From Flammeovirgaceae bacterium BBD 1991-12 (GTDB lineage Bacteria; Bacteroidota; Bacteroidia; Cytophagales; Cyclobacteriaceae): a DNA stretch of 55,925 nt. The stretch lies in assembly GCA_001657315.1 (NCBI GenBank), contig LYSV01000018.1:102696-158620 (forward strand), written 5' to 3'. Within the stretch, counting starts at the first letter, position 1. Each line of letters starts with the position of its first letter. Position numbers and translations under genes: made by a program. The notes beneath the pieces are model-generated. The model ran no database searches, was not told where the DNA came from, and saw nothing but the letters and a program-made list of their open reading frames with translations. Below are positions 7,281 to 21,812 of the stretch, piece by piece.

Positions 7281-8288
7281 TCAGCTATCAAAAACATTGG
7301 TGGCATCGTCGTCCATCATTACCTCCCCGGTATCACTGTGGTCAAAGCTGTCGTAGTCGTATCTGTCAAAATATCCTCCGTACCATACATAGGGAACCGC
7401 CATAAAAACATCCTCATATTCCACGGATTCATCTTTGCTGGTCGGGGCGTTCGTAGTAGGATTAAGGGGTTGGAATTGTCCATATACAGATTGGATAGCG
7501 TCAAAAAATGCTTTTACATGTAATACATGATCACCAACTTTCTTAATTTTCACTTTTACCTTAGCCACATATTGATCGTTGTGGTCAATAATCTGAACGC
7601 CGGGGGCTTCAGTACCATTCCATGTATATTCCTTTTTCGGCAAGGTCATTTTTATGAAACACTGATGTACAAACTTTGTCTTTGACTTGTATTTTGTTTT
7701 TCCACTGGCACTTCGTTTGGTCCACCTGAGATCTTTGATATCATCCTTTACCGCGAATTCCAGCAGGGTGTCATCTGTCAAAGGTACTTTTGAAATGATA
7801 TAGGTAGGACTGTATAGCTTTTGCTTTCTTACTCCAATGGTGCTTTTAACAGGCTCAAGTACCTTACGGGGATTTCTGAAATCCAGACTGGCTGATAATT
7901 TGGCATCATCACCTGCTTTATCTTTCAATACGTTGAGTATTGGCAGGAAAAATAGTCTCAGATAGTTGTTAACATCTTTTTGCTTTAGTTTTTTACGTCT
8001 GATTAAAAGGACAATCCCAACAATTACAAGCAATAAAGTGCCAAAAAGGATCCACCCGATTTCTGAAACAGCCGCTGCAATTATTGACACGAAAGCCACA
8101 ACAAATGAGGCTATTGCCCAACGCATAAGGATGGCTGTCATATCATCTTCCAACTTATCCAGTGAAGAGACCCTGGATAAAAAGCTGATCCACGCCTTTA
8201 TTTTCATCGTGGTACTTAAAGTCTTCTCTTGGTAGAATTGTTTTTGCTGGTGGGTGAGTGAGTTATATAGCTTTGATGCTTTACCCAT
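7281..8288 (-). CDS. Unknown membrane protein in the glycosyltransferase operon
   Basis: A 335-residue protein that I do not recognise. Residues 1-55 are polar and helical. Two adjacent hydrophobic helices follow at about 57-78 and 80-93, separated by a very short turn, with a basic RRKKLKQK stop-transfer after the second; both ends are therefore predicted in the cytoplasm. Residues about 100-280 are mixed alpha/beta and Lys-rich. The tail carries aromatic and acidic residues (YGGYFDRYDYD, then DDDATNVFDS). The stop codon is immediately followed by the ATG of the GT4 gene, so expression is coupled. It is 10 bases downstream of another glycosyltransferase. Possibly a cluster-specific export, scaffold or acceptor protein (inference). 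Confidence 0.8.
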   Translation of the reverse strand: MGKASKLYNSLTHQQKQFYQEKTLSTTMKIKAWISFLSRVSSLDKLEDDMTAILMRWAIASFVVAFVSIIAAAVSEIGWILFGTLLLVIVGIVLLIRRKKLKQKDVNNYLRLFFLPILNVLKDKAGDDAKLSASLDFRNPRKVLEPVKSTIGVRKQKLYSPTYIISKVPLTDDTLLEFAVKDDIKDLRWTKRSASGKTKYKSKTKFVHQCFIKMTLPKKEYTWNGTEAPGVQIIDHNDQYVAKVKVKIKKVGDHVLHVKAFFDAIQSVYGQFQPLNPTTNAPTSKDESVEYEDVFMAVPYVWYGGYFDRYDYDSFDHSDTGEVMMDDDATNVFDS

Positions 8289-8298
8289 TGGGTTCAGT

Positions 8299-9480
8299 TT
8301 AAGTGTAGACTAATGTTACTAATTTATCATAAAAAGCAGAAAGCTTCGTATCTATTTTGTCCCATGTATATTGTCTGGTCAGTTTGTTGAAGGCGTTTTG
8401 CGCCAATTGCCGGTTATAAAGGGGATAATCCGTTAACAAACGTATGGCTCTGGCCAGCTCTGCAGGGCGATCCGGCCTGACCAGCCTGGCCTCCGTATCG
8501 GGTTCCAGTATTTCCCTCACCACCGGCAGGTCAGAAGCTATAACGGGTGTTTTGCAGGCCATGCTTTCAAAGATCTTTAATGGAGAACAACCCTGCTCTA
8601 GGTTTCTGCTGCATTCGGTAAGCGGCGCCACAGTGCAGACTGCATGTTGTATTATCCTGAACAGGGTTTCTTTGGGCAGCTTGTGTTTCCAGATCACCTG
8701 CTGTTCCAGACCAAGTCTGGCTGTCAGCTTTTGATATGGCCTTGATAGTTTTTCCTTATGCGCAGAGCAAATAATCAGTTTAAGGGCGGGTTTATCCTGG
8801 AGATATTGCATGGCTTTGAGCAGCACATCCACACCTTGCCACGGTTGAAGTGCTCCAAAGTAAACAATATATTGTTCCGGTGAACCGGGCATTCTCCTGA
8901 GTGGCCCAGGTATCGTAGCCCCATTGGTAATTGTATGGATCTTGTCCTCCTGTACATCTCTGGAAACGAGATGGGTTTTAATGGTTTCTGAAGGGCAAAT
9001 AATCGAATCACACTGCCGGAGACACCAGTCCTCAAGCTTTTTGATCTTTTGAATGGTATCTTTTGTTATGTAGGCATACCTGTTCTGTAGTTCAATGGAC
9101 GGAAGTCCGTTGACCTCAAACACTGAGGTAATATTCGGTCTTTTTAACACAGGTATTCCACCCCATACATCCCGGAAATGACCTATCTGCAGATGATACT
9201 GAGAGTTCAGTATTTTGTCCACCCATTTAGAATAGTCAAGGGCACGTCTTAGAAAGTTGGGTTCCGGGGTCTGAAATTGCAGATGTTTAATAGGTTTTTT
9301 TATACGTTTATTATTCTGCCGTGGAAGTGTGACCAACAAAGTTTTGCCAAATTTATTATTCAGCACAGTTGACATATTATCAATATGAATTGCCGAACCC
9401 TTGAATGAAGGGTAGGGGTCGAACGCGGTATAAACGGATCGGTAATTAGATTTCAAAGTTGATATAATGAAAGGTGCCAA
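8299..9480 (-). CDS. Glycosyltransferase family 4 protein, TTG start
   Basis: A 393-residue GT-B enzyme and first gene of the minus-strand glycan operon. The N-terminal segment TAFDPYPSFKGSAIHI is the usual GT4 opening (loop plus KGxAxHI), so the start must lie upstream of it. In that frame the only usable start is the TTG at 9480; an in-frame TAA lies two codons further up. The donor-site half has YFGALQPWQGVDVLLKA and the region LKIFESMACKTPVIAS, both classical. A Cys-rich CLRQCDS segment sits mid-protein. The next gene begins 10 bases after the stop. The MocR gene upstream, on the same strand, ends 53 bases away, so read-through from it is possible. Confidence 0.91.
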   Translation of the reverse strand: MAPFIISTLKSNYRSVYTAFDPYPSFKGSAIHIDNMSTVLNNKFGKTLLVTLPRQNNKRIKKPIKHLQFQTPEPNFLRRALDYSKWVDKILNSQYHLQIGHFRDVWGGIPVLKRPNITSVFEVNGLPSIELQNRYAYITKDTIQKIKKLEDWCLRQCDSIICPSETIKTHLVSRDVQEDKIHTITNGATIPGPLRRMPGSPEQYIVYFGALQPWQGVDVLLKAMQYLQDKPALKLIICSAHKEKLSRPYQKLTARLGLEQQVIWKHKLPKETLFRIIQHAVCTVAPLTECSRNLEQGCSPLKIFESMACKTPVIASDLPVVREILEPDTEARLVRPDRPAELARAIRLLTDYPLYNRQLAQNAFNKLTRQYTWDKIDTKLSAFYDKLVTLVYT

Positions 9481-9533: not shown

Positions 9534-11030
9534 TTAACAGGCTGACCCTTTAAACTCCTGAAAAAGCCTTGACATTCTCAGGATCTTTTCCCTGATCACA
9601 TGTTCTCTTACAGAAGAGAATCCCATGACCAAACCGTTTTCCTTTTTTTCCTTCAGGAAGTACTTGCTGTATGGAAACGCCACAATTCCGTGGTGTTCAA
9701 GGAAACCGGAAACCTCAACATCGTCAATATGGGACGGAAGTCTGGCGATAACATGCAGCCCGCCACTGACCTGATGGAGCTGTATGGTTTTTTCAAAGTA
9801 CCGGTTAAAATGCTCAATGAAGCAGGCCCGTCGTTCGTTGGATATCTGAACCACCTTACGTAAATGTTTGCTTAAATAGTCCTTCTCAATAAAAGAGGAC
9901 ATCACCTTTTGAGTGACGGGAGAAACGAAACGCAGGGACTGCTCGTAAAGTGCTTTTATATCTTCTACCAGGTAGGGGGGTACGATGAGATACCCCAACC
10001 TTATGGCAGGATGCAGGAGTTTATTAAAGGTGCCCTGATAGATAACACTATTGCTTCTGTCCAAACCAAAAATGGAGGTGATGGGTTTTTCCCAATTGCT
10101 GAATTCATGATCATAATCATCCTCCACAATAAGGCAATTGTTGTCACTGGCCCAGTCCAGTAGTTCCAGTCGCCGCCTGAGTGTCATCTGAACACCTGAC
10201 GGGTATTGGTTTGAAGGAGTGGTGTATATCAGTTTAGGGTCTCTGAGATGGCTGGCCTTTATGCTTTTGATATTTAAACCTTCACTATCTATAGATGCAT
10301 TTATTATATTGGTTTTCAGGCTTTTAAACATTGCTATTGCATTAGCATAGGTGGGGTTTTCCAATACCACCTGATCTCCTTCGTCCAGTAGTAGATCTCC
10401 TACAATAGAAAGGGAATGCAATGACCCGGTTACGATCACCACCTGCTGGTAATCACAATGGATATTTCTGTAGATCCTTAGATAATCCACAATGTTCTTC
10501 CTCAGTGCGTCCAGACCCAGTGTTGCACCATAGGACATTTCTGAAAAAGTGACCTCCTTCCAATAGTTGTTCGTCAGGTTTTGCCATTGCCGGACAGGAA
10601 ATACGTCAAGGGGCGGAAGGCCTGGTCTAAAGGCGATCCCCTTATGCTCGCCCCTGTTCATAAGATCCACATGCTTCCTGAACTCACGCGCCCTTTTGGA
10701 AACACGTGGATTTACCTGAATATGGTTAACGGTTTTCAGGCTGTACTCGATCTTTTTATGCTGTACATCATTAACATAGTAGCCTGATCCCTGCGTGGCA
10801 CTGATATACTTTTCAAAGCAAAGTACTTCATACGCTTTGATCACGGTACTTCGGGACAAACCAAGGTCCCTCGCCAGCAGACGGGTAGGAGGAAGCTTGC
10901 TGCCCTTTACCAACTGCTTATTGAGAATAGCCCGCATAACGGCATTGGACAGCTTTAAGTACAGGCTTTGACCATTTTCCTGATCATTGAAACCATGCTC
11001 AAAAAGGACACTGTTTAGCTTGCTATTCAA
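9534..11030 (-). CDS. MocR/GabR-type regulator (GntR HTH fused to an aminotransferase domain)
   Basis: A 498-residue transcription factor. Residues about 20-88 form a GntR winged helix (SKLPPTRLLARDLGLSRSTV, then a GSGYYV wing). Residues about 130-495 are a fold-I aminotransferase domain that binds PLP: the EDDYDHEF segment at 303-310 supplies the Asp and Tyr, and GTFNKLLHP at 333-341 carries the Schiff-base Lys at about 337, so the effector site looks intact. MocR proteins sense amino-acid-like ligands through PLP and usually control a divergent metabolic operon. Here the divergent operon encodes D-amino-acid enzymes. The 226-base intergenic region contains an inverted pair of TTGGTA-type sites, as expected for its operator. 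The effector is probably a D-amino acid or a related amine (inference). Confidence 0.95.
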   Translation of the reverse strand: MNSKLNSVLFEHGFNDQENGQSLYLKLSNAVMRAILNKQLVKGSKLPPTRLLARDLGLSRSTVIKAYEVLCFEKYISATQGSGYYVNDVQHKKIEYSLKTVNHIQVNPRVSKRAREFRKHVDLMNRGEHKGIAFRPGLPPLDVFPVRQWQNLTNNYWKEVTFSEMSYGATLGLDALRKNIVDYLRIYRNIHCDYQQVVIVTGSLHSLSIVGDLLLDEGDQVVLENPTYANAIAMFKSLKTNIINASIDSEGLNIKSIKASHLRDPKLIYTTPSNQYPSGVQMTLRRRLELLDWASDNNCLIVEDDYDHEFSNWEKPITSIFGLDRSNSVIYQGTFNKLLHPAIRLGYLIVPPYLVEDIKALYEQSLRFVSPVTQKVMSSFIEKDYLSKHLRKVVQISNERRACFIEHFNRYFEKTIQLHQVSGGLHVIARLPSHIDDVEVSGFLEHHGIVAFPYSKYFLKEKKENGLVMGFSSVREHVIREKILRMSRLFQEFKGSAC

Positions 11031-11051
11031 AATTGTTGTGTACTGAAAAAG

Positions 11052-11103
11052 AAAATTGGTATGCCTAAGGTAGTGAAAATATATATAGCTTGCCTACCAA
11101 TTT
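11052..11103. promoter_or_regulatory. Putative MocR operator: inverted TTGGTATGC / GCCTACCAA pair
   Basis: Between the divergent MocR and oxidoreductase genes, AAAATTGGTATGC at 11052-11064 faces the near-complement GCCTACCAATTT at 11092-11103. Each half contains TGGTA; the first has the full TGGTAT, the reverse complement of the ATACCA core recognised by GabR-type regulators (established for GabR; inferred here). The same 13-base sequence recurs twice upstream of the SusC gene. The AT-rich ATATATAG between the halves could be a -10 element for either direction. It lies 22 bases upstream of the MocR start, which suits autoregulation. Confidence 0.6.
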
Positions 11104-11256
11104 CAGGATCTCATGGACATGAACGACCAGTTACTGAATATAAGCTGACGCAAGACAAGGATGGAGAAGATCCGAACCTGGAATAATACTTGTCCCGAAC
11201 GATTGGCTTTTTGCTTTTACAAGGAAATAAAAAATAGTTACCAGCAGTATTTGATC

Positions 11257-12252
11257 ATGATCACCGTACTACAAATCGGACTTGGCCCACTGGGTCAGCA
11301 AATTTCAAAATACATTACCGATAAAAAGGGAGTGAAAACCGTGGCAGCGGTGGATTTAAATCCCGCATGGAAAGGCAGGGATCTTGCCGATCTGGTGGAT
11401 AGTAAGCCATCAGGTGTTATGATAGAAGCCACCGTGGATCAGGCTTTGCAGCATCTTTCCGGGAAACCTGATGTGGCCATAATCACCACTGTCTCCAGCA
11501 TTCAGAAACTGGAATCGCAGATAGAAGAAGTAGCCAGACATGGTATACCTATGGTATCCACCTGCGAGGAATTATCATATCCCTGGGAGGAAAGTCCGGA
11601 AACAAGTAAAAACATTGATGCCTTGTGCAGGAAATACAAGGTAGCTTGCCTGGGTACCGGGGTGAATCCCGGTTTTCTGATGGATTACCTTCCTTCAGTA
11701 TTAAGTTCAGTCTGCAAAGAAGTAGAGAGTATTACTGTTGAAAGGTTTCAGGATGCTGCGCCCCGTAGAATTCCTTTTCAGCAAAAAATAGGGGCAGGCC
11801 TGGATCTGGAGGCTTTCAAAGCCAAAGAGCAGACCGGTACTCTGAGGCACGTTGGTCTGAAGGAGTCTGTTTATTTCCTTGCCGGTAGTCTGGGGTGGAA
11901 ACTGGAAAAGGTTACAGAGGAACTGCATCCTGTGATGGCCGAAGAAAGTATCAGTATACCCTCTATGGAAATAAAGAAAGGGGATGCCCGCGGTGTAGAG
12001 CAGATCTCCTGTGGATACCTGAATGGGGATTGTAAGATCAGAATGCATTTTAAGGCCGCTGTAGGTGAGGCACGTTCCTTTGACAGGATCACCGTAAAGG
12101 GTGTTCCATCTTTCACATCTGAAATTGACAACGGTGTTAATGGTGATATAGCCACTTGTGCCATTACCATTAACAGTATTAAAAGTGTACTGAATGCCGC
12201 CCCGGGGCTGCAAACCATGTCCACGGTACCCGTGCCCGGTTATATCAATTGA
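11257..12252 (+). CDS. NAD(P)-dependent DapB-like / 2,4-diaminopentanoate dehydrogenase-like (native amine dehydrogenase) oxidoreductase
   Basis: The frame is open from 11161, but the ATG at 11257 puts the nucleotide-binding strand VLQIGLGPLGQQI (GxGxxG) right at the N-terminus, as in the family; the upstream 32 codons look non-coding. The protein has 331 residues: a DapB_N-type Rossmann domain, then a C-terminal domain of the 2,4-diaminopentanoate dehydrogenase type. The STCEELSYPW segment corresponds to the catalytic Glu region of native amine dehydrogenases. These enzymes interconvert an amine and a ketone with NAD(P)H. In this operon it may oxidise or reduce an amino-acid-derived amine or imine (inference). 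It is the first gene of the operon divergent from the MocR gene; the transaminase follows after 30 bases. Confidence 0.85.
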   Translation: MITVLQIGLGPLGQQISKYITDKKGVKTVAAVDLNPAWKGRDLADLVDSKPSGVMIEATVDQALQHLSGKPDVAIITTVSSIQKLESQIEEVARHGIPMVSTCEELSYPWEESPETSKNIDALCRKYKVACLGTGVNPGFLMDYLPSVLSSVCKEVESITVERFQDAAPRRIPFQQKIGAGLDLEAFKAKEQTGTLRHVGLKESVYFLAGSLGWKLEKVTEELHPVMAEESISIPSMEIKKGDARGVEQISCGYLNGDCKIRMHFKAAVGEARSFDRITVKGVPSFTSEIDNGVNGDIATCAITINSIKSVLNAAPGLQTMSTVPVPGYIN

Positions 12253-12282
12253 AGTTTAATTCCATGTAACGATCATTTTAAA

Positions 12283-13152
12283 ATGGGACAGTATCCTTCA
12301 AAAGTCTATCTGAATGGTGAAATTGTTGATCATCAGAATGCCAGAGTATCCGTTTTTGACCGGGGTTTTTTATTTGGAGATGGGATCTATGAGGTAATGG
12401 TGCAACTTGATGGAAGTTTTTTCTACGAAAAGGCACACCTACAGCGGCTTTCCGACTGTCTTCAAAAGATCAGCATAGCATTTGACGTCAACACCCTTCC
12501 TGCCAGGATACAGGATCTCCTGCGGGCTTCAGGTCTGCAGGAGAAGGATTGTCTGCTGTATATCCAGGTTACACGCGGCACCGCCCCCAGAAAACACGCC
12601 TTCCCTACGAATGTACCGCCTACAGTGATGATGTATGCATTGCCTCATGTGCTGCCGGATATTAATACCAATGACACTTCAGCGATCACCATGCCGGATT
12701 TTCGCTGGTCCCGCTGTGACATTAAAATGACCTCACTGCTGGGTAATGTGATGGCCAATGATACGGCAATAAAACAAGGGGCATTCGAGGCCGTACTGGT
12801 CAGGGATGGGAAGATAACCGAGGCGTCACACTGCAACGTGTTTTTTGTAAGGGACAGTATTGTTCATACACATCCTGCCGATGAACACATTCTTAATGGT
12901 ATAACCAGACAAATTGTTATAAAATTGTGTGCGGATCTGGGGTTGGAGGTGAGGGAAGAAGCAGTCCGGCAGACAGACATTGCCCACATGGATGAGGCAT
13001 TCCTGACAGGCACTACTACTCAGATAGCGTCCGTCAGACAAATTGATACACATGTTTTTTACAGTGATGGAAATGCCGGCAAGGTGACCAGAAGACTTCA
13101 GGAGGCCTTTTTTGAGTTAAAGAAGGGAATGAAAAAGGTTCTGCAGGATTGA
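12283..13152 (+). CDS. dat: D-amino acid transaminase (class IV aminotransferase)
   Basis: A 289-residue fold-IV PLP enzyme of normal length. Visible motifs: VYLNGEIVD and DRGFLFGDGIYE at the N-terminus, TRGTAPRKHAFP at about 97-108 (the RGTxPRxH motif that marks D-amino acid transaminases rather than branched-chain ones), RCDIKMTSLL with the PLP Lys at about 148, KITEASHCNVFF with the conserved Glu at about 180, and LTGTTTQIASV that holds the phosphate. It moves the amino group of D-amino acids such as D-Ala or D-Glu to a 2-oxo acid in the cytoplasm. Its neighbours (D-aminoacylase, serine hydrolase) support a D-amino-acid role. Its stop lies 53 bases before the ATG of the deacylase. A branched-chain or aminodeoxychorismate function is less likely. 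Confidence 0.9.
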   Translation: MGQYPSKVYLNGEIVDHQNARVSVFDRGFLFGDGIYEVMVQLDGSFFYEKAHLQRLSDCLQKISIAFDVNTLPARIQDLLRASGLQEKDCLLYIQVTRGTAPRKHAFPTNVPPTVMMYALPHVLPDINTNDTSAITMPDFRWSRCDIKMTSLLGNVMANDTAIKQGAFEAVLVRDGKITEASHCNVFFVRDSIVHTHPADEHILNGITRQIVIKLCADLGLEVREEAVRQTDIAHMDEAFLTGTTTQIASVRQIDTHVFYSDGNAGKVTRRLQEAFFELKKGMKKVLQD

Positions 13153-13205
13153 AGAATTGTTTTTTGCCGGATGCCCTGTTTATCAGATACAAACCCAATA
13201 ATACC

Positions 13206-14792
13206 ATGATCAGCAAAAATTTCATTCTGCTACTGACAGCCCTGCTTGTCCTTGTTGGTTGCTCAAAAAGTCCCGATTTTGATATTATCATTTTAAACGG
13301 AACAGTTTATGACGGATCGGGCAGTGAGCCGGTCGTTATGGATATCGGCATAAGAGGTTCTGTGATCGAAAAGACAGGTAACCTTTCAAAGGCAAAGGGG
13401 AACGTTATTATTGAAGCCGGTGGCCTGGCCATAGCGCCTGGTTTTATTGATATGCATGCTCACCTTGACCCTATACTCGAGCTTTCAGAATGCGAAAGCA
13501 TGGTCAGGCAGGGAGTAACCACCGCACTGGGCGGGCCTGACGGTTCCAGTCCATGGCCATTTGGTAATTACCTGGACACGCTCAACAGGATAGGAGTGGG
13601 AATGAATGTAGCCTACTTAATAGGGCACAATACTGTAAGGAGAAATGTCATGAGCCTGGATAACCGGCCACCAGCGCCTGAAGAGCTGGAACAGATGAAG
13701 GCTCAGATCGGACAGGCAATGGACGAAGGGGCCTTTGGTATTTCCACAGGGCTGAAATACCTGCCGGGTGCTTTTTCTGAAATTGATGAGGTTATTGCTC
13801 TCTCGAAGGTAGCCTCTTCCAAAGGAGGCATCTATACCTCACACCTTCGTGAAGAAGGCCTTGGTCTGCTCCCGGCGGTCAGGGAAGCCATTACCATATC
13901 CAGAGAAGCCGGGATCCCTGTGGTACTTACCCATCACAAGGTAATAGGTAAGCCGATGTGGGGGAAAAGTGTACAGACGCTGGCTATGGTAGACTCCGCA
14001 CGGGCAGCCGGACTTGATATAAAGCTGGATCAGTACCCTTACAATGCCAGCTATACCGGTATTTCCATCTTAATACCCAGCTGGGCACGGGCTGGCGGTA
14101 ATGATGCCTTTAAGGAAAGACTGACCGATCCGGCACTAAGGGACAGTATAAAGGCAGGGATCATTTACAATATGCGCAATGACCGGGGAGGAGACGACCT
14201 CACACGGGTGCAATTTGCCAAAGTAGAGTGGATGAAAGAACTGGAAGGTAAAACGTTAAAATACTGGTGTGAAAAAAAGGGACTTGAGCCGGTCATAGAC
14301 AATGGCGCCGAACTGGTAATTGAAGCGCAGGTAAAAGGGGGGGCGTCATGTGTTTTCCATGCCATGGATGAACGGGATGTAGAGCGTATCATGCAGCACC
14401 CACAAACCATGATCGCTTCGGACGGAAGGCTGGTAAAGCCGGGGATCGGCCATCCTCACCCAAGATGGTATGGCACTTTTCCAAGGGTACTGGGCCATTA
14501 TGTCCGCGGGAAGTCCATCATTACTCTGCCGGAAGCCATATACAAAATGACAAAGCTTCCTGCCACTACATTGGGATTGAAAGACAGGGGACAGATAAAA
14601 CAGGGCATGAAGGCGGATGTCGTTGTATTCGATCCTGCATCAGTTATAGATAAAGCCACATTTGAAGCACCTCACCAGTATTCGGAAGGGATCAGATATG
14701 TGATGATCAACGGTCAGATGGCTGTGGATGATGGAAAATTCCAGCACCGCAAGGCAGGTGAAGTGCTTAGAAAAGAAAAGTCCGCAAATTGA
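13206..14792 (+). CDS. N-acyl-D-amino-acid deacylase (D-aminoacylase), lipoprotein
   Basis: The frame extends to a TTG at 13149, but the ATG at 13206 gives a clean lipoprotein signal ending LVLVGC (Cys at residue 19), so 528 residues. The rest is an amidohydrolase-superfamily D-aminoacylase: FIDMHAHLD with the HxH pair at about 84-86, SHLREEG and THHKVIG carrying further metal-ligand histidines, and the late ASDGRLVKPGIGHPH segment with the catalytic Asp. It hydrolyses N-acyl-D-amino acids, or D-configured dipeptide-like compounds, to free D-amino acids. Lipid anchoring places it in the envelope, probably periplasmic, just before uptake into the cell where the transaminase acts. Same strand and short spacing to both neighbours indicate one operon. 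Confidence 0.92.
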   Translation: MISKNFILLLTALLVLVGCSKSPDFDIIILNGTVYDGSGSEPVVMDIGIRGSVIEKTGNLSKAKGNVIIEAGGLAIAPGFIDMHAHLDPILELSECESMVRQGVTTALGGPDGSSPWPFGNYLDTLNRIGVGMNVAYLIGHNTVRRNVMSLDNRPPAPEELEQMKAQIGQAMDEGAFGISTGLKYLPGAFSEIDEVIALSKVASSKGGIYTSHLREEGLGLLPAVREAITISREAGIPVVLTHHKVIGKPMWGKSVQTLAMVDSARAAGLDIKLDQYPYNASYTGISILIPSWARAGGNDAFKERLTDPALRDSIKAGIIYNMRNDRGGDDLTRVQFAKVEWMKELEGKTLKYWCEKKGLEPVIDNGAELVIEAQVKGGASCVFHAMDERDVERIMQHPQTMIASDGRLVKPGIGHPHPRWYGTFPRVLGHYVRGKSIITLPEAIYKMTKLPATTLGLKDRGQIKQGMKADVVVFDPASVIDKATFEAPHQYSEGIRYVMINGQMAVDDGKFQHRKAGEVLRKEKSAN

Positions 14793-14816
14793 TGACCCAT
14801 TAAACTACCCGTCACC

Positions 14817-15890
14817 ATGATTAAGCTCAGGTATTCATTTTTGTTGTTACTGATGGCAGGTGCCTTCTTATTCTTCGTTGTTTCATGTACCGATACGCCT
14901 CCCGCGGTTTTTCCCGGCGAATCATGGGCTTATGCAAAAGATGCAGGTGACTATGGCTATTCACAGGCACAACTGGAGAAGGCAAAAGCTTATTCGGAAA
15001 GTATTAATACTGCGGCAGTCATCATCGTTAAAGGCGGAAAGATCCTTTATGAATGGGGAGAGGTGGAGAAGAAATTCAACACACATTCCATTCGTAAGAG
15101 CTTTCTGAGCGCGCTGTATGGGAATTATGTCCGGGATGGTATCATAGACCTTGACCAGACCATGGAAGCTTTGGGTATAGAAGATGATCCACCACTTTCA
15201 GAAGAGGAAAAAAAAGCTACGATCCGTGATTGCCTGAAGGCACGGTCAGGGGTATATCATCCTGCTTTATACGAATCTGCCGGAATGAAGGCGCTTAAGC
15301 CTGAGCGACACACGGAAAAGGCCGGTACGCACTGGTACTACAATAACTGGGATTTTAATGTAGCAGGCACTATTTTCAGTCAGCTGACAGGCAAGGGAGT
15401 ATACGAAGCTATTAAAACCAAAATAGCGGACCCCATCGGAATGAAGAATTTCCTGGTAGAAGACGGGAACTACGTTTCAGGAGAAGAGTCTATCCACAAG
15501 GCTTATCCGTTCAGAATAAATGCACGGGACCTCGCACGTTTTGGCCTGCTTATGCTGCGGAAAGGACAATGGAATGGTAAACAGCTTATTCCTGAAGAAT
15601 GGGTAGAAGAAAGCACATCATATCATTCAGACGCCACGTTGTATTCATGCGATGGCTACGGCTACATGTGGTGGGTTGTGAAGGATCACAACAAGTTTCC
15701 CCATCTTCCGGGAGTAACACTAAAAGAAGGTACCTATTCTGCAAGAGGTGCCGGAGGGCACTATGTATTGATCATACCTGATCATGATATGGTCATTGTC
15801 CACCGTGTAAACACCGACCTTAGGGATAACCGGGTCAGTAAAGAGGAATTTGGTAAACTGGTTGCCCTGATTCTGGAGGCAAAAAATTAA
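14817..15890 (+). CDS. Beta-lactamase-family serine hydrolase, lipoprotein
   Basis: A 357-residue class C beta-lactamase-fold enzyme. The signal ends FFVVSC with the lipid Cys at about residue 24. The catalytic motif SIRK (Ser about 91, Lys about 94) is followed by YYNNWDFN, which corresponds to the YxN motif, and by GAGGHYVLIIP near the C-terminus, corresponding to the KTG/HxG strand. This family includes D-Ala-D-Ala carboxypeptidases, D-aminopeptidases and esterases. Next to a D-aminoacylase and a D-amino acid transaminase, a peptidase or amidase releasing D-amino acids, possibly from muropeptides, is the best guess (inference). It is the last gene before a 1-kb gap leading to the SusC/SusD pair; 24 bases separate it from the deacylase. 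Confidence 0.9.
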   Translation: MIKLRYSFLLLLMAGAFLFFVVSCTDTPPAVFPGESWAYAKDAGDYGYSQAQLEKAKAYSESINTAAVIIVKGGKILYEWGEVEKKFNTHSIRKSFLSALYGNYVRDGIIDLDQTMEALGIEDDPPLSEEEKKATIRDCLKARSGVYHPALYESAGMKALKPERHTEKAGTHWYYNNWDFNVAGTIFSQLTGKGVYEAIKTKIADPIGMKNFLVEDGNYVSGEESIHKAYPFRINARDLARFGLLMLRKGQWNGKQLIPEEWVEESTSYHSDATLYSCDGYGYMWWVVKDHNKFPHLPGVTLKEGTYSARGAGGHYVLIIPDHDMVIVHRVNTDLRDNRVSKEEFGKLVALILEAKN

Positions 15891-16391
15891 CCATGTGGGT
15901 TAGTGATCATTGATTCCTCCTGAGCTATGATCACGAGTTGGTTCATAATTGTAGCCAGACAGGGTATGTGATACTTACAGAAGCCCCTGTCACTGGCTTG
16001 ACCACTTTCTTGAAAAACTGTAAATTATCCAAATCATACCCCCCGTAAAGGGTGAAATTTTCCCGCCACAATCCGGTGTATACTGAATGTAAACCAGTCT
16101 CTTTTCCCCTCGTAGTCTAAATGATCCAATTTGGAGTTGGTACAAATCAAAAAAAAATGAATTATGACAGCTCCGGTAAAAACAAAAAAGCCTTTAGCGC
16201 ACTGAGGTATAACCCTATTCATTTTCTCCATGCATTCTTTGGTATCAGTGGATGAACTGGGGTATGAAAGATTGTGCTACAGTCAGCAAAAAGCCCGTTT
16301 ATGAATGGATAACGGCCATTGATATTTGTATTGATCGATTTCCGGACGCGAAGATGAACTAATGTTACTTATGGAAATTTAAGGGCAGTAT
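15891..16391. other. Gene-poor gap after the D-amino-acid operon
   Basis: No confident gene. Several short open stretches look protein-like but are broken. On the minus strand, a reading from about 16231 down to 16034 would need a frame change near 16060 to continue to about 15944. On the plus strand there is a 32-codon ORF at 16157-16255. These may be remnants of a decayed gene or chance. No terminator with a T tract is evident after the serine hydrolase stop. Confidence 0.4.
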
Positions 16392-16427
16392 AAAATTGGT
16401 ATGCTTAATGAACAAAAATTGGTATGC
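16392..16427 (+). promoter_or_regulatory. Direct repeat AAAATTGGTATGC x2, putative MocR-responsive operator of the SusC/SusD operon
   Basis: AAAATTGGTATGC occurs at 16392-16404 and again at 16415-16427, identical over 13 bases with 23 bases from start to start (about two helical turns). The same 13 bases are found at 11052-11064 beside the MocR gene. Two same-orientation sites containing TGGTAT (ATACCA on the other strand) match the direct-repeat organisation known for GabR. The location, about 540 bases upstream of the SusC start and just upstream of a possible promoter, fits control of SusC/SusD. Binding by the MocR protein encoded at 9534-11030 is inferred. Confidence 0.65.
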
Positions 16428-16442
16428 CCATTCAAAAAAAAA

Positions 16443-16467
16443 TTGATTTACTTTATCTATTAGTTTC
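16443..16467 (+). promoter_or_regulatory. Possible Bacteroidota-type promoter for the SusC/SusD operon
   Basis: Just downstream of the direct repeat, TTG at 16443-16445 and TAGTTTC at 16461-16467 resemble the Bacteroidota -33 TTTG and -7 TAnnTTTG elements. The spacing is a little short (15 bases between), so the match is weak. Transcription from here would give a leader of about 500 bases before SusC. Confidence 0.3.
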
Positions 16468-16968
16468 AATACCTAAACAACAAGCTTACATCGGTGATAG
16501 TCAGTATAATACAGTCTGTATTTGTCCTGTTGGTTCCTCAGATGTCCGAATACACTGTTGACCAAAGGGAAGTATGCGCCAATACTATCAGTCATTTTCT
16601 CACTCACTTTAAGGCAAAATACCCGGGGGATCATATTCGCAGAGGGCCGGGTGGCTTTCTGTCTGAAAAGATCGATGATTCACCCGGAGGAAACTTTATA
16701 CAGGAACCAATACAACCCTCATCCCGGATATATCAGTTATCTGGAAACCCGGGCAACGACACCATTGACATGACAAGGACAACACCTGTAAATTACTTTC
16801 TTCTCTACGGGAAAAGCCAAACGACCAAAACAGTCTCTTTTACCAACAATAAACTCTGTTAGAAGAGATCGATCCGACACCGGATTGATAAATCATACAG
16901 CAACAGCCTAATTAAAATCTATAATCTATGAACTAATTAAACTTCTCACCTATCTAAACTTTAGAACT

Positions 16969-19900
16969 ATGACGAAACCTTTATCAGTTATTTTAACCTT
17001 GGTTCTGTTGCTGCCTTTCTGGGCCCGGGCACAGCAGAGAACAGTATCGGGGACCATTCGCGGTGAAAACAGCGAAGCAATTCCCGGTGCGAACATTATC
17101 GTAAAGGGCACTACCACGGGGACGATCAGTGATATTGATGGAAACTACAGCATTACCGTGAACAATGATGCTACGCTGGTCTTTTCATTTTTAGGGTATG
17201 AAACTCAGGAAGTGCGAGTAGCAGGTCAGTCAGTAATTGACGTGTCACTGGTGTTTAGCTCCAAACAGTTGACTGAAGTAGTGATCGTGGGATATGGTAG
17301 TCAGCGTAAGGAACAGCTTACCGGTTCTGTGAATGTAGTAAATGCAGAAACCTTACAAAAGGTTCCCACGCCTTCCTTCCAGGACGCCTTGCAGGGTAGT
17401 TCACCCGGAGTACAGGTAGTGGCGCAGGACGGCGCTCCAGGTGGAGGTGTTTCTATACGTATACGGGGTATTGGTTCGATCAATGCGTCCAATGAGCCTC
17501 TGTACGTCATCGATGGTATTCCGATCACCGCCGGTAACGGTCCTTTGTCCACTACGGATTTTGACAACGGAGGAAGAAGTGCCAACCCATTGGCTTCTAT
17601 TAACCCTAATGACATTGAAAACATTGTTGTACTAAAGGATGCTGCTTCAACGGCAATTTATGGATCACGGGGTGCAAATGGTGTGGTTTTGATCACTACA
17701 AAAAGTGGAAAGGCCGGAGATGCAAAAATAGAGCTGAGAACCCGCATCGGCTTTTCTTCTCCTGCCTTTAATAACCTGCTGGAACCATTGAATGAGGAAC
17801 AGTATCGTCAGCTATATATAGAAGGGCATGTTAATGCAGGTAATGACGACACAGAGGCTGAGGCGCTAGAACGTTATAACAGGCAATTTCCGGACCAGGC
17901 CAATACTAATTGGATCGATGAAATTACACAAACGGGCGTAACGCAGGATTATAATATCAGTGCTTCCGGTGGTACGGACAAATTTACCTACTTTGTATCC
18001 GGTAATGTTCTTCAACAGGAGGGAATAGTTGTTAATAACAAATTTGACAGATATTCGAGCCGCATAAATCTTGCTGCCAGTCTGACGGAAAAACTGACCC
18101 TTACCAACAATTTGACTCTTTCCTACTTCGATCAACGAGGAATTACCGACGGAACCCGCTGGCAAGCCCCCTTTTATGTAGGCTATCTGATGGCTCCCAC
18201 CGTGCCCGTCAGGGATGATCAGGGGAGGTTCTACGGGGATCACAAAAGTTTTTTTATGGGGGGCAACAACCCCAGAGGACACCTCTCTGATGACCGAAGA
18301 GAACGTGAGCAAACCCGAATCATCAACAACTTCAGTGTATCCTATGATATACTTGACAACCTCAGTTTCACTTCAGCATGGTCATTTGATCTGATCCAGA
18401 TTGACGACTTCATTTTTAGTAATAGTCGATATGGGGACGGTCGTAATGTAGGTGGTGAGGCCCAGGAAGCTGCCACTGACCAACTGAACTGGCTGGGTAC
18501 TCAAACGATAAATTACTCCAATACCTTTAAGGAATTACATAATTTTGACGTGCTGGTTGGGTATGAGGCACAAAAAGTAGTCACCGATCAATTGGACATT
18601 GCTACCCAGGGTGTGCCTAGTCCCTTGATCCATGTATCTGCCGGAGCCAATCCACAGGGACAAACATTCAACAGCAGATCCGAATTCTCTTTTGAATCAT
18701 GGTTCAGTCGCGTGAATTATGATTTTGATCAACGATATTATGCGACGGCTTCACTTAGGAGAGATGGTTCTTCACGTTTTGGGCCTGAAAATCGTTATGG
18801 AACTTTCTGGTCAATAGGTGGAGGTTATGCGATCAGTGAAGAGAGCTTCATGCAGAACATTAGTGTCATTGACTTTTTAAAACTACGTGCCAGTTATGGT
18901 CAAACAGGTAATGCTGCTGTTGACGACAACAATGTCGATACAGATGATAACTACTTGTGGGCCGAAACCTATGGTTTTGGCCGTGAATACGATGGAGCAC
19001 CTGGAGCCGCTCCTCTTTCTACAGGAAATGCTGCTCTCACCTGGGAATCACAAAACAGTTATAATGTTGGATTGGACTTCACCGGATTTGGTCAGCGTCT
19101 CAATGCCACAGTGGAATATTTTATTCGTCAATCTACTGATTTGATCCTGAACCGTCCTCTGTCACGTACTACAGGTTTTCGCGAGCAGGTGACGAACATA
19201 GGCGACATGGAAAACCGGGGCATCGAAGTACAGGTCAATGGTGATGTGATCTCGAACAATGATTTCGTATTGAATGCAGGCTTCAACTTTACATCTATCA
19301 ATAACGAAATTACCAGGCTGGATGAAGCTATCGTGGATGACACTAAACGTAGGGAAGAAGGGCGTGACTTTCAGGAGTACTACCTCTACGGTTGGGCTGG
19401 AGTTAACCCTGACAATGGTGATCCTCTTTGGTACACCGATGAGACCAAGTCTGAAACCACCAGCAACATCAATGAAGCCAGACGCTTTTATGATGGAAAA
19501 AGCGCCACTCCGGATTTCTTTGGGGCCTTCAACCTAAGTGCAAGGTACAAGGGAGTAACACTGGCAGGTCAGTTGAATTATCAATTTGGTAATTACCTGT
19601 ATGACGGTCCTGGTTGGGTCATCCACGGAGACGGCCGGTTCACACCGCGCAGCACATCCACCTACGCGTTTGAGAACCGCTGGACTACTCCGGGACAGAA
19701 TGCCAAATTTCCACAACATCGCTGGGGAGGGAATCAAAGCTCTAATCAAAGGGACTCGGATCGTTACCTTTTTGAGGGTGACTATATGCGCCTCAGAACC
19801 GTCAGCCTGTCTTACGATTTTCCGGCCAGTTTGTTAAGCACTGTCAAACTTCGGGCCTTGCAGGTATCCGTACTTATGAATAATATGTGGACATGGACCA

Positions 19901-20007
19901 AGGATGATGACTTGTATTTTGATCCTGAGCAGACCATTAGTGGAGTCTTCAATACAGTTACCCCTATCAATAAAACCATCAATTTTGTTCTAAACATCGG
20001 CATATAA
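16969..20007 (+). CDS. SusC/RagA-family TonB-dependent outer-membrane transporter
   Basis: A 1012-residue outer-membrane transporter of usual SusC length. A signal peptide ends near WARAQQ (residue about 22). Next is a carboxypeptidase-regulatory-like domain (TVSGTIRGENSEAIPGANI, DIDGNYSI). The plug domain follows (GYGSQRKEQLTGSVN, IRIRGIGSINASNEPLYVIDG-type segment, AAStAIYGSRGANGV region), and then a 22-strand barrel closing with INFVLNIGI. It imports oligomeric substrates with its SusD partner and TonB energy. No glycoside hydrolase or polysaccharide lyase is adjacent, whereas D-amino-acid enzymes lie upstream and share an operator-like motif. A peptide or amino-sugar-peptide substrate is thus more likely than a polysaccharide (inference). 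SusD begins 7 bases after the stop. Confidence 0.97.
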   Translation: MTKPLSVILTLVLLLPFWARAQQRTVSGTIRGENSEAIPGANIIVKGTTTGTISDIDGNYSITVNNDATLVFSFLGYETQEVRVAGQSVIDVSLVFSSKQLTEVVIVGYGSQRKEQLTGSVNVVNAETLQKVPTPSFQDALQGSSPGVQVVAQDGAPGGGVSIRIRGIGSINASNEPLYVIDGIPITAGNGPLSTTDFDNGGRSANPLASINPNDIENIVVLKDAASTAIYGSRGANGVVLITTKSGKAGDAKIELRTRIGFSSPAFNNLLEPLNEEQYRQLYIEGHVNAGNDDTEAEALERYNRQFPDQANTNWIDEITQTGVTQDYNISASGGTDKFTYFVSGNVLQQEGIVVNNKFDRYSSRINLAASLTEKLTLTNNLTLSYFDQRGITDGTRWQAPFYVGYLMAPTVPVRDDQGRFYGDHKSFFMGGNNPRGHLSDDRREREQTRIINNFSVSYDILDNLSFTSAWSFDLIQIDDFIFSNSRYGDGRNVGGEAQEAATDQLNWLGTQTINYSNTFKELHNFDVLVGYEAQKVVTDQLDIATQGVPSPLIHVSAGANPQGQTFNSRSEFSFESWFSRVNYDFDQRYYATASLRRDGSSRFGPENRYGTFWSIGGGYAISEESFMQNISVIDFLKLRASYGQTGNAAVDDNNVDTDDNYLWAETYGFGREYDGAPGAAPLSTGNAALTWESQNSYNVGLDFTGFGQRLNATVEYFIRQSTDLILNRPLSRTTGFREQVTNIGDMENRGIEVQVNGDVISNNDFVLNAGFNFTSINNEITRLDEAIVDDTKRREEGRDFQEYYLYGWAGVNPDNGDPLWYTDETKSETTSNINEARRFYDGKSATPDFFGAFNLSARYKGVTLAGQLNYQFGNYLYDGPGWVIHGDGRFTPRSTSTYAFENRWTTPGQNAKFPQHRWGGNQSSNQRDSDRYLFEGDYMRLRTVSLSYDFPASLLSTVKLRALQVSVLMNNMWTWTKDDDLYFDPEQTISGVFNTVTPINKTINFVLNIGI

Positions 20008-20014
20008 CTGTGAA

Positions 20015-21466
20015 ATGATGAAAAGATTAAAAAATATATATAAGCTATTGGCATTGATTCCATTGGTATTGATCGCTGGTTCCTGTGGAGACGATTTCCT
20101 TGATCTCGATCCTCCATTGCAGGTTCCGAATGAAGATTTTTTAAAGAATGTGGATGATTTTCAGGCTGCCATAAACGGTGCCTATGATCAAATGCAGCTT
20201 GCGGATTATTATGGACGTTACTTTCTGCTGATCCCGGATATCATGGGTGAGGATATCAAGCAAAATGCCAGCGCCAACCGGGGTAAGGAGTGGGCTGAGT
20301 ATAATGGAGCTCCTACCACGAACCAGAACGAGCACAGGGAGTTTTGGGCTGAGATCTATGAGATCATTAACATGGCCAATCTAATGATCAATTCTGATTT
20401 TGAATCGGTTCCAAGCAGACAGGAAGAATTCAATAACCTTATTGGCCAGGCCTATGCCATTCGTGCACTGGCTCATTTTGATCTGGTCCGTTTGTTTGCC
20501 CAAACGTATGTTTTTACTTCGGATGCATCACATCCGGGTGTTCCCATTGTTACTGAATTTGACAGAGAGGCACGACCTGCTCGTAATACTGTAGCCGAAG
20601 TATATGCGCAGGTCATATCGGATTTTGAGGAGGCAATTTCTTTACTCACGATCACACCTAAAAGTACCGGAGTTATTTCGAAGGAGGCCGTACAAGCTTT
20701 ACTTTCAAGGGTATATCTCTATATGGAGCGTTATGAAGATGCAGAAGACCTTGCTACCGAAGTGATCAGCGGAGGGCGTTTTGAGCTGGTATCGAGAGAT
20801 AAGTATGCTGACCAGTTTTTTGATGGGGGATCGTCGGAAGCTATTTTCGAAGTTATTTTCAACCTGGTCGACAATCCTGGGGCAGATCATCTTGGAGGTA
20901 TGTATAAGGAATCCGGCTATGGTGATTATCTGCCTTCCCGTCAATTATTTGCCCTGTTCGAAGACGATGATATAAGAGGTACTCTATTCATAGAAGATGA
21001 TAACCTTGATGATGGTATTTATGCAGATGCTGACGGTGTAGGCAGACGGGTATATAAGTATCCCAGTGAGGGACCTGATATTGCTACAGATAATTTACCG
21101 GTCATCCGTCTGTCAGAAGTGATCCTGAACCGGGCTGAAGCCCGTGCCAGGGACGGCGATGATGTGGGAGCACTGGCCGACCTCAACCTGATCCGTGAAC
21201 GGGCTGGTATAACCGAGCTTGATGGTTTGGCAGGTCAGCCTTTGGTAGATGCGATCCTCGAGGAAAGAAGAAGAGAATTGTTTGCAGAAGGACATCGTGT
21301 TTTTGACATTACCCGTCATAAACTGAATGTCGTACGTACAGATTGTACAGCGCCCGATAATGCCTGTACGATAAACTATCCTAATGACAGGTTCATATTA
21401 CCGTTACCTCAGGAGGAAACTGACGTAAATAAAACGATAAAACAGGCACCTGGCTATGGTATCTGA
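20015..21466 (+). CDS. SusD/RagB-family surface lipoprotein
   Basis: A 483-residue substrate-binding lipoprotein that caps the SusC barrel. The signal runs through LALIPLVLIAGSC with the lipid Cys at about residue 24. An N-terminal SusD-like domain follows (LDPPLQVPNEDFLKNVDDFQ), with TPR-like helices including IIGQAYAIRALAHFDLVRLF-type sequence. The C-terminal RagB/SusD domain has RLSEVILNRAEARARDGD and an EERRRELFAEGHRVFDITR segment, both strongly conserved in the family. It pairs with the SusC gene 7 bases upstream. A perfect intrinsic terminator begins 23 bases after the stop, so SusC and SusD form a two-gene unit. Ligand is unknown; see the SusC entry for context. Confidence 0.97.
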   Translation: MMKRLKNIYKLLALIPLVLIAGSCGDDFLDLDPPLQVPNEDFLKNVDDFQAAINGAYDQMQLADYYGRYFLLIPDIMGEDIKQNASANRGKEWAEYNGAPTTNQNEHREFWAEIYEIINMANLMINSDFESVPSRQEEFNNLIGQAYAIRALAHFDLVRLFAQTYVFTSDASHPGVPIVTEFDREARPARNTVAEVYAQVISDFEEAISLLTITPKSTGVISKEAVQALLSRVYLYMERYEDAEDLATEVISGGRFELVSRDKYADQFFDGGSSEAIFEVIFNLVDNPGADHLGGMYKESGYGDYLPSRQLFALFEDDDIRGTLFIEDDNLDDGIYADADGVGRRVYKYPSEGPDIATDNLPVIRLSEVILNRAEARARDGDDVGALADLNLIRERAGITELDGLAGQPLVDAILEERRRELFAEGHRVFDITRHKLNVVRTDCTAPDNACTINYPNDRFILPLPQEETDVNKTIKQAPGYGI

Positions 21467-21489
21467 TTTGACCTCGTAGATTGTGAAAA

Positions 21490-21518
21490 CCGCCTGACAG
21501 TGTCAGGCGGTTTTTTTT
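21490..21518 (+). terminator. Intrinsic terminator of the SusC/SusD operon
   Basis: CCGCCTGACA and TGTCAGGCGG form a near-perfect palindrome with a one-base centre (21490-21510), followed by eight T (21511-21518). It lies 23 bases after the SusD stop. Confidence 0.93.
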
Positions 21519-21687: not shown

Positions 21688-21812
21688 GTTCAATGAAGTT
21701 TCGTTTATGTAAATAAGGTGCGTTCGCCATATCCGTCCACATAATGTTCAATACTGATAATGCTCACTTTTAGCTATATTGAGAAGTGCATAACACTAAC
21801 TTTTGTCTTCCC

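Follow-up and report, generated by a model that had tools for sequence, protein, structure and literature searches.

A putative MocR-controlled locus for D-amino-acid utilisation linked to a SusC/SusD pair

The window analysed here comprised the whole stretch of 55,925 nucleotides. The locus within it consisted of a MocR-type regulator on the reverse strand, a divergent forward-strand operon encoding an oxidoreductase (Ord), a transaminase, a D-aminoacylase-like protein and a serine hydrolase, and then SusC and SusD, also on the forward strand. This gene content and order had been given in a preliminary description, and were borne out by ORF coordinates and by PF and NCBIfam profile matches. 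The regulator (9534..11030, reverse strand) combined a GntR-type winged helix-turn-helix (wHTH) domain (PF00392, 33.3 bits) with a fold-type I aminotransferase-like PLP domain (PF00155, 58.6 bits), both above cut-off, the combination by which MocR proteins are recognised.

Ord (11161..12252, forward strand; possible start at 11257 by homology) matched PF19328, the family of NAD(P) oxidoreductases resembling native amine dehydrogenases (nat-AmDH), at 115.2 bits. The next gene encoded a class IV D-amino-acid transaminase (12283..13152, forward strand; PF01063) with no signal peptide seen by eye. Its best NCBIfam model was TIGR01121 (D-amino-acid transaminase; 259.4 bits, below the cut-off of 277.45) and its best solved relatives were D-alanine/D-amino-acid aminotransferases. 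The segment VTRGTAPRKH aligned with VTRGTSPRAH of 1daa, and the Arg-x-His was present, which we take to be the carboxylate trap of the Bacillus D-amino-acid transaminase. The D-aminoacylase-like amidohydrolase (13149..14792, forward strand; PF07969; likely start 13206) was a predicted lipoprotein with the lipobox LVGC identified by eye, and its best solved relatives were the D-aminoacylases 1m7j and 1rjp (E 1e-85). Its usual Cys was replaced by Asp, as in 37 of 38 relatives, the remaining one having Glu; this position is presumably a metal ligand of A6 D-aminoacylase. The serine hydrolase (14817..15890, forward strand; PF00144), likewise a lipoprotein by its lipobox read by eye, was nearest among solved structures to the 6-aminohexanoate-dimer hydrolase 4gb7 and had homologues in three related loci (L061, L070 and L043). 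No inner-membrane transporter was found in the operon.

The SusC-type TonB-dependent transporter (16969..20007, forward strand) scored 840.9 bits against TIGR04056 (cut-off 368.25) and was followed by a SusD-type lipoprotein (20015..21466, forward strand; PF07980 and PF14322), so that the two were assigned as a SusC/SusD pair by TIGR04056 plus PF07980. Behind SusD lay an intrinsic-terminator-like hairpin (21485..21515, forward strand) of 14 pairs followed by a T run, whose stem was the longest among 7 terminator-like sites found in the region, where shuffles predicted 4.9. The BNR protein directly behind SusD matched NF045728 ('glycosylhydrolase') at 126.1 bits, below the cut-off of 175. As first described, SusC/SusD was without a glycoside hydrolase: none of the 7 proteins from MocR to SusD matched such a family. 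The possibility that this type of pair is usually found elsewhere with carbohydrate enzymes, raised at that time as an objection, was not borne out, 0 of 10 proteins scanned beside its six nearest SusCD relatives being a glycoside hydrolase. A carbohydrate or polysaccharide utilisation locus was rejected because no carbohydrate-active enzyme above cut-off was present in the 8 window proteins scanned or in those 10 neighbours.

The 13-base motif AAAATTGGTATGC, noted earlier at both promoters, was found at 11052 and 16392. Its copies formed 23-nt direct repeats, accompanied by an inverted copy, both of which had gone unremarked. At the divergent MocR/Ord promoter the operator (11030..11064, forward strand) comprised a degenerate box (11030-11041) and an exact box (11053-11064) 23 nt apart, with the distal box touching the MocR start; a motif scan placed the inverted third box (AAATTGGTAGGC) at 11092..11103 on the reverse strand. 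The operator before SusC (16393..16427, forward strand) comprised two exact boxes (16393-16404 and 16416-16427), again 23 nt apart. The recurrence exceeds chance, because all 3 exact copies of AAATTGGTATGC in the organism's own 8.59 Mb genome sit at the MocR/Ord and SusC promoters, the second SusC-side copy being at 16416. With up to one mismatch, 61 matches were found in the genome (36 for the reversed control). The window alone speaks less clearly, its 5 such matches (1.87 expected) being reached in 4 of 100 shuffles, and the distance of about 540 nt from the operator to the SusC start likewise tells against the motif. The pattern AATTGGTATG-N13-AATTGGTATG at up to three mismatches matched twice in the genome, perfectly before SusC and with 2 mismatches at the MocR/Ord promoter, and the reversed control also matched twice. 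As a spaced direct repeat near the regulator's own gene, the motif has the form of a MocR operator and is classed as a putative operator. The regulator also passed the NCBIfam PdxR cut-off (369.6 against 320), as would an ordinary PdxR serving vitamin B6 and linked only incidentally to the operon. This is extremely improbable, since exact genome copies of the operator lie only before Ord and SusC, and the operator accompanies the Ord operon across species.

Related loci were sampled as the nearest 80 of 382 Ord relatives, many of them represented by short contigs. A basic script served for ORF calling and gave no Ord ORF in 2 of the 80 (L115 and L139). MocR homologues were present in 22 of the 80 loci, the main matches being 42-69% identical and some cut by contig ends, and all 22 carried a D-aminoacylase gene. 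The motif (at most one mismatch) preceded the Ord operon in 21 of these 22 and in 1 of the 50 countable loci lacking MocR; 8 of the 80 loci did not enter this count, because the Ord ORF was missing or too little sequence lay upstream. The sole MocR locus scored without the motif, L081, does carry a box, which was missed because its Ord match fell in two pieces and the scan was placed too far downstream. L068, a close relative, had neither MocR nor the motif. Where a MocR or AraC regulator was present (33 loci), 23 loci had SusC and 22 an M14 peptidase. D-aminoacylase co-occurred with SusC (Fisher p 2.5e-7, with kinship ignored). With unlabelled rows disregarded, MocR-linked proteins in an Ord tree all fell to one side of a branch, as did AraC-linked proteins.

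The two operators recurred in different places among these relatives. That of MocR/Ord aligned with the Ord promoters of 9 relatives. That before SusC aligned with 12 M14 promoters, with SusC behind M14 in 11 of the 12 (the exception being L078), and the M14 genes were preceded by tandem boxes 22-24 nt apart. The same tandem box stood, in Flavobacteriaceae, before M14-peptidase genes that were mostly followed by SusC-SusD. From the operator and the co-occurrence of genes across relatives, the MocR-SusCD link is therefore taken to be a conserved regulon, and both this linkage and the D-amino-acid theme of the preliminary description are upheld. Further motif copies in the relatives' genomes lay mostly beside genes matching none of the probes.

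Other neighbours of Ord among the 80 loci, each class represented by one scanned protein, were S12 proteins with D-aminopeptidase as best model, below cut-off (6 loci), S58 peptidases (5), a GltP-like symporter (4) and gamma-glutamyltransferase (4). Glutamate-racemase-like lipoproteins occurred in 9 loci, 9 of 9 with the ACNTAT and GCTHYP motifs, and the one scanned reached 103.4, short of the 146.65 set as cut-off for glutamate racemase. The 20 neighbour proteins from more distant Ord loci were diverse, with gamma-glutamyltransferase, AstE/AspA-like proteins and M24/M28 peptidases each at single loci and no other common theme. Another candidate role for the block is the use of oxidised chitin, in which the D-aminoacylase-like enzyme would deacetylate N-acetylglucosaminic acid in the manner of OngB. 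OngB is a GlcNAc1A-active member of this amidohydrolase family and, in the part of PMC9537276 consulted, is clustered with TonB-dependent receptors in marine bacteria; the window protein matched PpOngB at E 2e-70. Such a role is nevertheless very improbable, as the D-aminoacylase match was better (1e-85), no hexosaminidase, sugar kinase or RidA protein was found in the eight window proteins scanned, and relatives carry peptidases instead.

Judged by sequence, the window's SusCD pair is not orthologous to that of the related loci: its SusC was 26% identical to the SusC of L074, and the L074 SusD gave no match. Its substrate is therefore assigned from the operator and by analogy. The loci of its six nearest kin (SusD 45-49%) held no match to Ord, MocR, transaminase, D-aminoacylase or M14. 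No motif was found near SusC in these kin, even in Balneolaceae genomes that own a MocR-Ord module, so the window offers the sole case of the operator linked to this type of SusCD. The regulon could then be real while a foreign SusCD, importing an unrelated substrate, has come to lie behind an old M14-SusC operator that perhaps drives it by accident. The pair's non-orthology and the setting of its kin favour this, as do the gap of ~540 nt from operator to SusC start, compared with ~60-90 nt to M14 in most relatives, and the nearest solved relative of SusD, 3kez, deposited as a 'putative sugar binding protein'. Against it, both boxes are still exact and in the tandem spacing of the relatives, SusCD forms the adjoining unit, with the terminator-like hairpin behind it, and the ten scanned neighbours of its kin included no glycoside hydrolase; we regard it as rather unlikely. 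A further gene in the gap and a remnant of M14 there were both set aside. An ORF of 122 aa in the gap (16494-16862) had no homologue below E 2 in the fetched loci, the window's own copies excepted. An M14 probe gave no match to the gap before SusC even at E 5, the best value for any probe being 0.12. An M14 homologue elsewhere in the genome (39-41%, contig C214) lay near other SusCD pairs and had no tie to the MocR regulon.

The best named models of Ord were PF19328 and NF040740, which would suit a 2,4-diaminopentanoate dehydrogenase of ornithine fermentation. That assignment is scarcely credible: the curated equivalog NF040740 scored 248.1 bits against a cut-off of 400, no ornithine aminomutase was found in the eight window proteins scanned, and the active site differs. 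When aligned to AmDH4, Ord had Arg at F168, Arg at R161 and His at H197. The Phe at P12 that marks 2,4-diaminopentanoate dehydrogenase (nat-AmDH group G2) was replaced by Arg in the window protein and 78 of 78 relatives, thus in 79 of 79 near proteins, and in 14 of 14 sister proteins. P12 was equated with AmDH4 F168 by elimination, this being the sole AmDH4 Phe between R161 and H197 that aligned with Arg here; the text of PMC11164908 gives no numbering for it. Group G1 is marked there by a catalytic Glu (P3), Arg P9, Arg P12 and His P15, and Ord had all four. The native substrate of G1 is reported as unknown and the group is expected to bind a terminal carboxylate and a second negative or acceptor group, with no more said. 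The earlier label of an amine-dehydrogenase-like oxidoreductase proved too generic, the G1 mark (PMC11164908) pointing to glutamate.

In 11 of 14 sister loci the gene directly upstream encoded a P5C dehydrogenase, the product of which is glutamate; this enzyme was found in 0 of the 80 near Ord loci. By our own stereochemical derivation, conversion of the methyl of (4S)-2,4-diaminopentanoate to a carboxylate gives an R centre, which is that of D-glutamate. Pocket chemistry, the transaminase, the racemase-like lipoproteins near relatives and the sister P5C dehydrogenase point to glutamate, perhaps D-glutamate, as the substrate. Because the glutamate formed by P5C dehydrogenase is the L form, the sister group may have L specificity, which sits uneasily with the D assignment. 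We give a limited chance to Ord being instead a broad NAD(P) D-amino-acid dehydrogenase, an L-glutamate enzyme or an enzyme for another dicarboxylate amine, such as a 4-substituted glutamate or 2,4-diaminoglutarate. This would suit the broad G1 requirement stated in PMC11164908, the sister-group P5C dehydrogenase and the 65 of 80 Ord loci with no transaminase gene in the examined stretch. Set against it are the clade A transaminase, racemase-like lipoproteins and D-aminoacylases, which speak for a D substrate in the clade that includes the window.

Taken with D-glutamate as the substrate of Ord, the locus is on balance probably a regulon through which MocR controls the use of a substrate containing D-amino acids. 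This substrate would enter across the outer membrane by way of SusC/SusD, and the D-aminoacylase-like and serine-hydrolase lipoproteins would free D-amino acids outside the cytoplasm. The cytoplasmic D-amino-acid transaminase would pass the amino group to 2-oxoglutarate, yielding a 2-oxo acid and D-glutamate. Ord, as a G1-type native amine dehydrogenase, would turn this D-glutamate back into 2-oxoglutarate, releasing ammonia and forming NAD(P)H. It would thereby complete the cycle, in the part that glutamate dehydrogenase plays for L-amino acids, and the whole would mirror ordinary transdeamination. MocR, which probably detects a D-amino acid through PLP, would bind the 23-nt direct repeats of AAATTGGTATGC and switch both units together. 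Gene content, the operator-like repeats and their conservation, co-occurrence and active-site residues were read from sequence; the reactions, the D configuration, the imported substrate and MocR binding and sensing are inferred. Weighing against this reading are the L-glutamate made beside the sister group, the features noted above that set the window's SusCD apart, the Asp in place of the usual Cys in the D-aminoacylase-like protein, the curated cut-offs missed by the transaminase, Ord and the scanned racemase-like protein, the PdxR match of the regulator, the lack of an inner-membrane transporter in the operon, the many Ord loci with no transaminase gene in the examined stretch, and L068. 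It is tentatively suggested that Bacteroidota and Balneolota may carry a dedicated 'D-amino-acid utilisation locus', a SusCD system organised like a polysaccharide locus whose targets would be peptides rich in D-glutamate, either peptidoglycan stem peptides or poly-gamma-D-glutamate. Its hallmark enzyme would be a D-glutamate dehydrogenase using NAD(P). This activity would be what nat-AmDH G1, or its clade found in these loci, does natively, and coupled to the transaminase it would amount to mirror-image transdeamination.

Bacterial-wall D-amino acids form a sizeable share of old marine organic matter. To our knowledge, outer-membrane importers and NAD-linked routes for D-amino acids are hardly described, and none was recognised in the open-access subset of the literature. 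The locus makes the G1 native substrate addressable by a single assay, suggests that SusCD is used by a MocR regulon outside carbohydrate metabolism, and has an operator simple enough for predicting further regulon members. The related gene sets also suggest a job for G1 amine dehydrogenases, a group whose role the authors of PMC11164908 could not place. Ord shares with that group the PF19328 fold family, the catalytic Glu, Arg P9, His P15 and Arg P12. The accessible text reports no clear functional evidence from NetSyn context, whereas two recurrent contexts were found here, D-amino-acid/SusCD clusters and P5C dehydrogenase pairs. Marine D-amino-acid users (PMC6965332, accessible part) likewise include a transaminase among their routes from D-amino acids to 2-oxo acids. 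The seven isolates there, none Bacteroidota by name, use mostly FAD-type oxidoreductases, and that part describes neither a D-glutamate step using NAD(P) nor an importer in the outer membrane ('tonb' 0 times). The ong cluster for oxidised chitin (PMC9537276, consulted in part) has in common a D-aminoacylase-family deacylase and TonB-dependent receptors, and its authors call the pathway akin to D-amino acid catabolism; it differs in its sugar-acid substrate and in its deaminase and regulator. MocR regulons such as GabR, TauR and PdxR (PMC5320631, in part) are alike in the GntR wHTH plus aminotransferase domain and in direct repeats spaced by about two turns of the helix, with an added inverted box at one promoter. 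In that part neither a regulon for D-amino acids nor one with SusC is described, and D-amino, aminoacylase, SusC and TonB each occur 0 times in the main text. The SusCD polysaccharide utilisation loci of Bacteroidota are alike in SusC/SusD, lipoprotein hydrolases and a dedicated regulator, whereas here no carbohydrate-active enzyme was found and the pair is accompanied by D-amino-acid-type enzymes, a MocR regulator (AraC in related loci) and an operator common to two units.

The MocR regulator gene lies on the minus strand (9534-11030), opposite a divergent operon. This encodes Ord, a PF19328 NAD(P) oxidoreductase resembling native amine dehydrogenases (11161-12252, plus strand), then a class IV D-amino-acid transaminase and two lipoproteins, the first D-aminoacylase-like and the second a PF00144 serine hydrolase. 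SusC and SusD follow after a 1.1-kb gap (15891-16968), with a terminator-like hairpin behind. Profile searches returned no glycoside hydrolase family match for any of the seven block proteins, MocR through SusD, and the gene content and coordinates of the preliminary description were correct. Lipoprotein signals were seen by eye on the D-aminoacylase-like protein and the serine hydrolase, and none on Ord or the transaminase. The MocR score exceeded the PdxR cut-off, which is read as family resemblance. In the D-aminoacylase-like proteins, the usual Cys metal ligand was Asp in the window and in 37 of 38 relatives, and Glu in one; D-aminoacylase is therefore a putative function for them. The Asp-for-Cys lipoproteins (window 13149-14792 and relatives) form a distinct variant.

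A 122-aa ORF inside the gap had no homologues among the fetched loci. Beyond the hairpin lies a 950-aa sortilin/BNR-repeat protein (21786-24638), which matched NF045728 'glycosylhydrolase' at a score under the cut-off. Similar proteins are encoded at Aquimarina Ord loci (L065, L067, L081), at L089 and close to some of the SusCD kin (L141, L150, L155). A 1610-aa protein encoded at 24755-29587 (minus) shows many repeated segments by eye. By eye, the minus-strand genes adjoining MocR (6180-9480) resemble glycosyltransferase genes from a surface-sugar cluster.

At an E value of 1e-60, Ord was found in one of 241 genomes searched from the host's order, its own. The nearest named copies (71-77% identical over the best segment) came from Flavobacteriaceae, Balneolaceae and one Kangiella-labelled bin, and the operon was probably acquired horizontally. 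The Ord genes of L064 (Balneola) and L068 (Kangiella), two contigs from metagenome project IP29b, are closely related (tree path about 0.1), and one bin may be mislabelled. Relatives were compared using the best 80 of 382 named Ord loci (near loci). A MocR homologue was present in 22 of these 80, all 22 with a D-aminoacylase homologue. The preliminary description had proposed a search for its gene order in other Bacteroidota, and this comparison supports the linkage. Clade A (Flagellimonas, Aquimarina, Allomuricauda, Aequorivita, Balneola) has MocR divergent from Ord-transaminase-(M20)-D-aminoacylase, followed in some loci by a serine hydrolase, an S12 D-aminopeptidase-like protein or an S58 peptidase. 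Five of its loci (L069, L071, L072, L073, L114) have a convergent set of SusD, SusC and the M14 peptidase behind. In clade B (Tenacibaculum, Maribacter, Hyunsoonleella and others), M14-SusC-SusD-Ord-(M14)-D-aminoacylase runs divergently from MocR on contigs long enough to include the regulator, and a glutamate-racemase-like lipoprotein is often encoded as well; in one exception, L078, M14 was present and SusC absent. An AraC regulator adjoins Ord in 11 other loci, a third group drawn mostly from Saprospiraceae and Roseivirga; SusC was present in 10 of them, M14 in eight and D-aminoacylase in seven. MocR-linked and AraC-linked rows were each confined to one side of a branch of the Ord tree (100/100; 49 unlabelled rows excluded), and the window lay within a 28-row set (100/100) containing all 22 MocR rows. 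Seventeen control loci, picked solely by SusD kinship, gave no matches to the Ord, MocR, transaminase, D-aminoacylase or M14 probes.

Ord resembles the amine dehydrogenase 7xdu/AmDH4. Assignment as a 2,4-diaminopentanoate dehydrogenase was rejected; the score was below the family cut-off, and Arg rather than Phe stands at AmDH4 F168. The text of PMC11164908 sorts native amine dehydrogenases into groups, among them G2 (2,4-diaminopentanoate enzymes, Phe at pocket position P12) and G1 (Arg at P12, Arg at P9, His at P15). That text is without P12 numbering, and P12 was equated with F168 by elimination. Arg was aligned at F168 in 79/79 near proteins and in 14/14 of a sister group, with R161 and H197 retained. 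By our own derivation, a carboxylate replacing the methyl of (4S)-2,4-diaminopentanoate would give the glutamate skeleton, and the change of priority would make the centre R, as in D-glutamate.

Gene context agrees with glutamate. Glutamate-racemase-like proteins were encoded in 9 of the best 80 of 382 loci (L074:12556-14097, L075, L076, L077, L080, L082, L083, L084, L108). All nine keep both cysteine motifs (ACNTAT and GCTHYP), and the eight full-length proteins have a lipoprotein-like N-terminal signal. The best model for the one profiled was glutamate racemase (103.4, cut-off 146.65). These proteins are apparently exported, in Ord/D-aminoacylase loci mostly with SusCD. A GltP-like symporter (under cut-off) and gamma-glutamyltransferase genes were each found in 4/80 near loci. 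A P5C dehydrogenase gene, whose product is L-glutamate, directly precedes the Ord-like gene in 11/14 sister loci; none was detected at any of the 80 near loci. This pairing supports glutamate of either hand, since the sister enzymes may well act on the L form. Among the sister G1-like loci (L057, L059, L060, L019-L032), the placing of the enzyme gene directly behind P5C dehydrogenase in these 11 hints at a glutamate-oxidising step of proline breakdown. On balance glutamate is the probable substrate of Ord, and D-glutamate specifically a tentative assignment.

Across the whole 8.59 Mb genome, the motif AAATTGGTATGC was matched exactly at three positions (11053, 16393, 16416), all in this block, which bears out the earlier claim of a motif shared by the MocR promoter and the region upstream of SusC. 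The pre-SusC copies (16393, 16416) are spaced 23 nt apart; a degraded copy at 11030 lies 23 nt ahead of the one at 11053, and a fourth copy, inverted with one mismatch, lies at 11092-11103. A tandem search at ≤3 mismatches returned two sites, pre-SusC and the MocR/Ord promoter. The reversed control also gave two chance matches, and therefore the exact copies are strong evidence and the degenerate copy is not. A shorter 11-mer had nine genome copies versus six for the reversed control.

Relatives were scanned at distances of up to 300 nt from the first Ord-operon gene; 72 loci were countable (22 with MocR, 50 without) and 8/80 were not. At ≤1 mismatch the motif was found in 21/22 loci with MocR versus 1/50 without, and at ≤2 mismatches in 21 and 4 (shuffle expectation 1.5 and 2.7). 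The single one-mismatch positive without MocR, L061, is a clade A contig ending just upstream. The MocR locus missed by the scan, L081, has the box; its Ord match is split in two pieces. Neither MocR nor the motif was found at L068, whose protein belongs to clade A. The box-to-Ord distance was 85-116 nt in 11 of 12 positive clade A MocR loci (9 nt in L066, by a longer ORF), with a degraded partner box 23 nt upstream in several. Most clade B promoters and those of convergent M14 genes have two boxes spaced 22-24 nt. Extra copies ahead of a citrate/sulfate-type symporter gene (L085:1325-1359, tandem; L076:782) suggest more regulon members in relatives. Both the Ord operon and SusCD very probably belong to one regulon.

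The SusC operator of the window, 540 nt ahead of the SusC start within the 1.1-kb gap, could be aligned with 12 M14 promoters from relatives, and in 11 of these cases SusC follows M14. No M14 gene precedes SusC in the window. The window SusC was 26% identical to that of L074, and the L074 SusD probe had no match within the window; by these comparisons its SusCD is distinct from that of the relatives. The nearest kin of the window SusD (45-49% identity) belong to SusCD pairs without the motif or D-amino-acid genes. Habitual pairing of SusC/SusD with carbohydrate enzymes in other genomes had been named as evidence against the proposed pathway; the ten proteins scanned beside these kin included M20, S41, PF00144 and housekeeping families and no glycoside hydrolase. 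The link proposed in the preliminary description is supported by the shared operator and its conservation in relatives; its weak point is that the window's SusCD is not orthologous to theirs. The likeliest history is that a different SusCD moved in behind the old operator, and we infer that it still serves D-amino acids. Import of D-amino-acid-containing material is favoured, and candidates may include peptidoglycan peptides, poly-gamma-glutamate and N-acyl-D-amino acids.

The block as a whole is likely to be a D-amino-acid pathway, in which the transaminase would yield D-glutamate. Its constituent parts are of known kinds; no description of this combination was found in the searchable open-access literature. 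The predicted D-glutamate dehydrogenase is the testable, more novel core of the system. The motif itself looks like an operator. PMC5320631 describes MocR operators whose direct repeats stand two or three helical turns apart and gives two direct boxes plus one inverted repeat as the commonest layout, and the box spacing and layout here fit that account.
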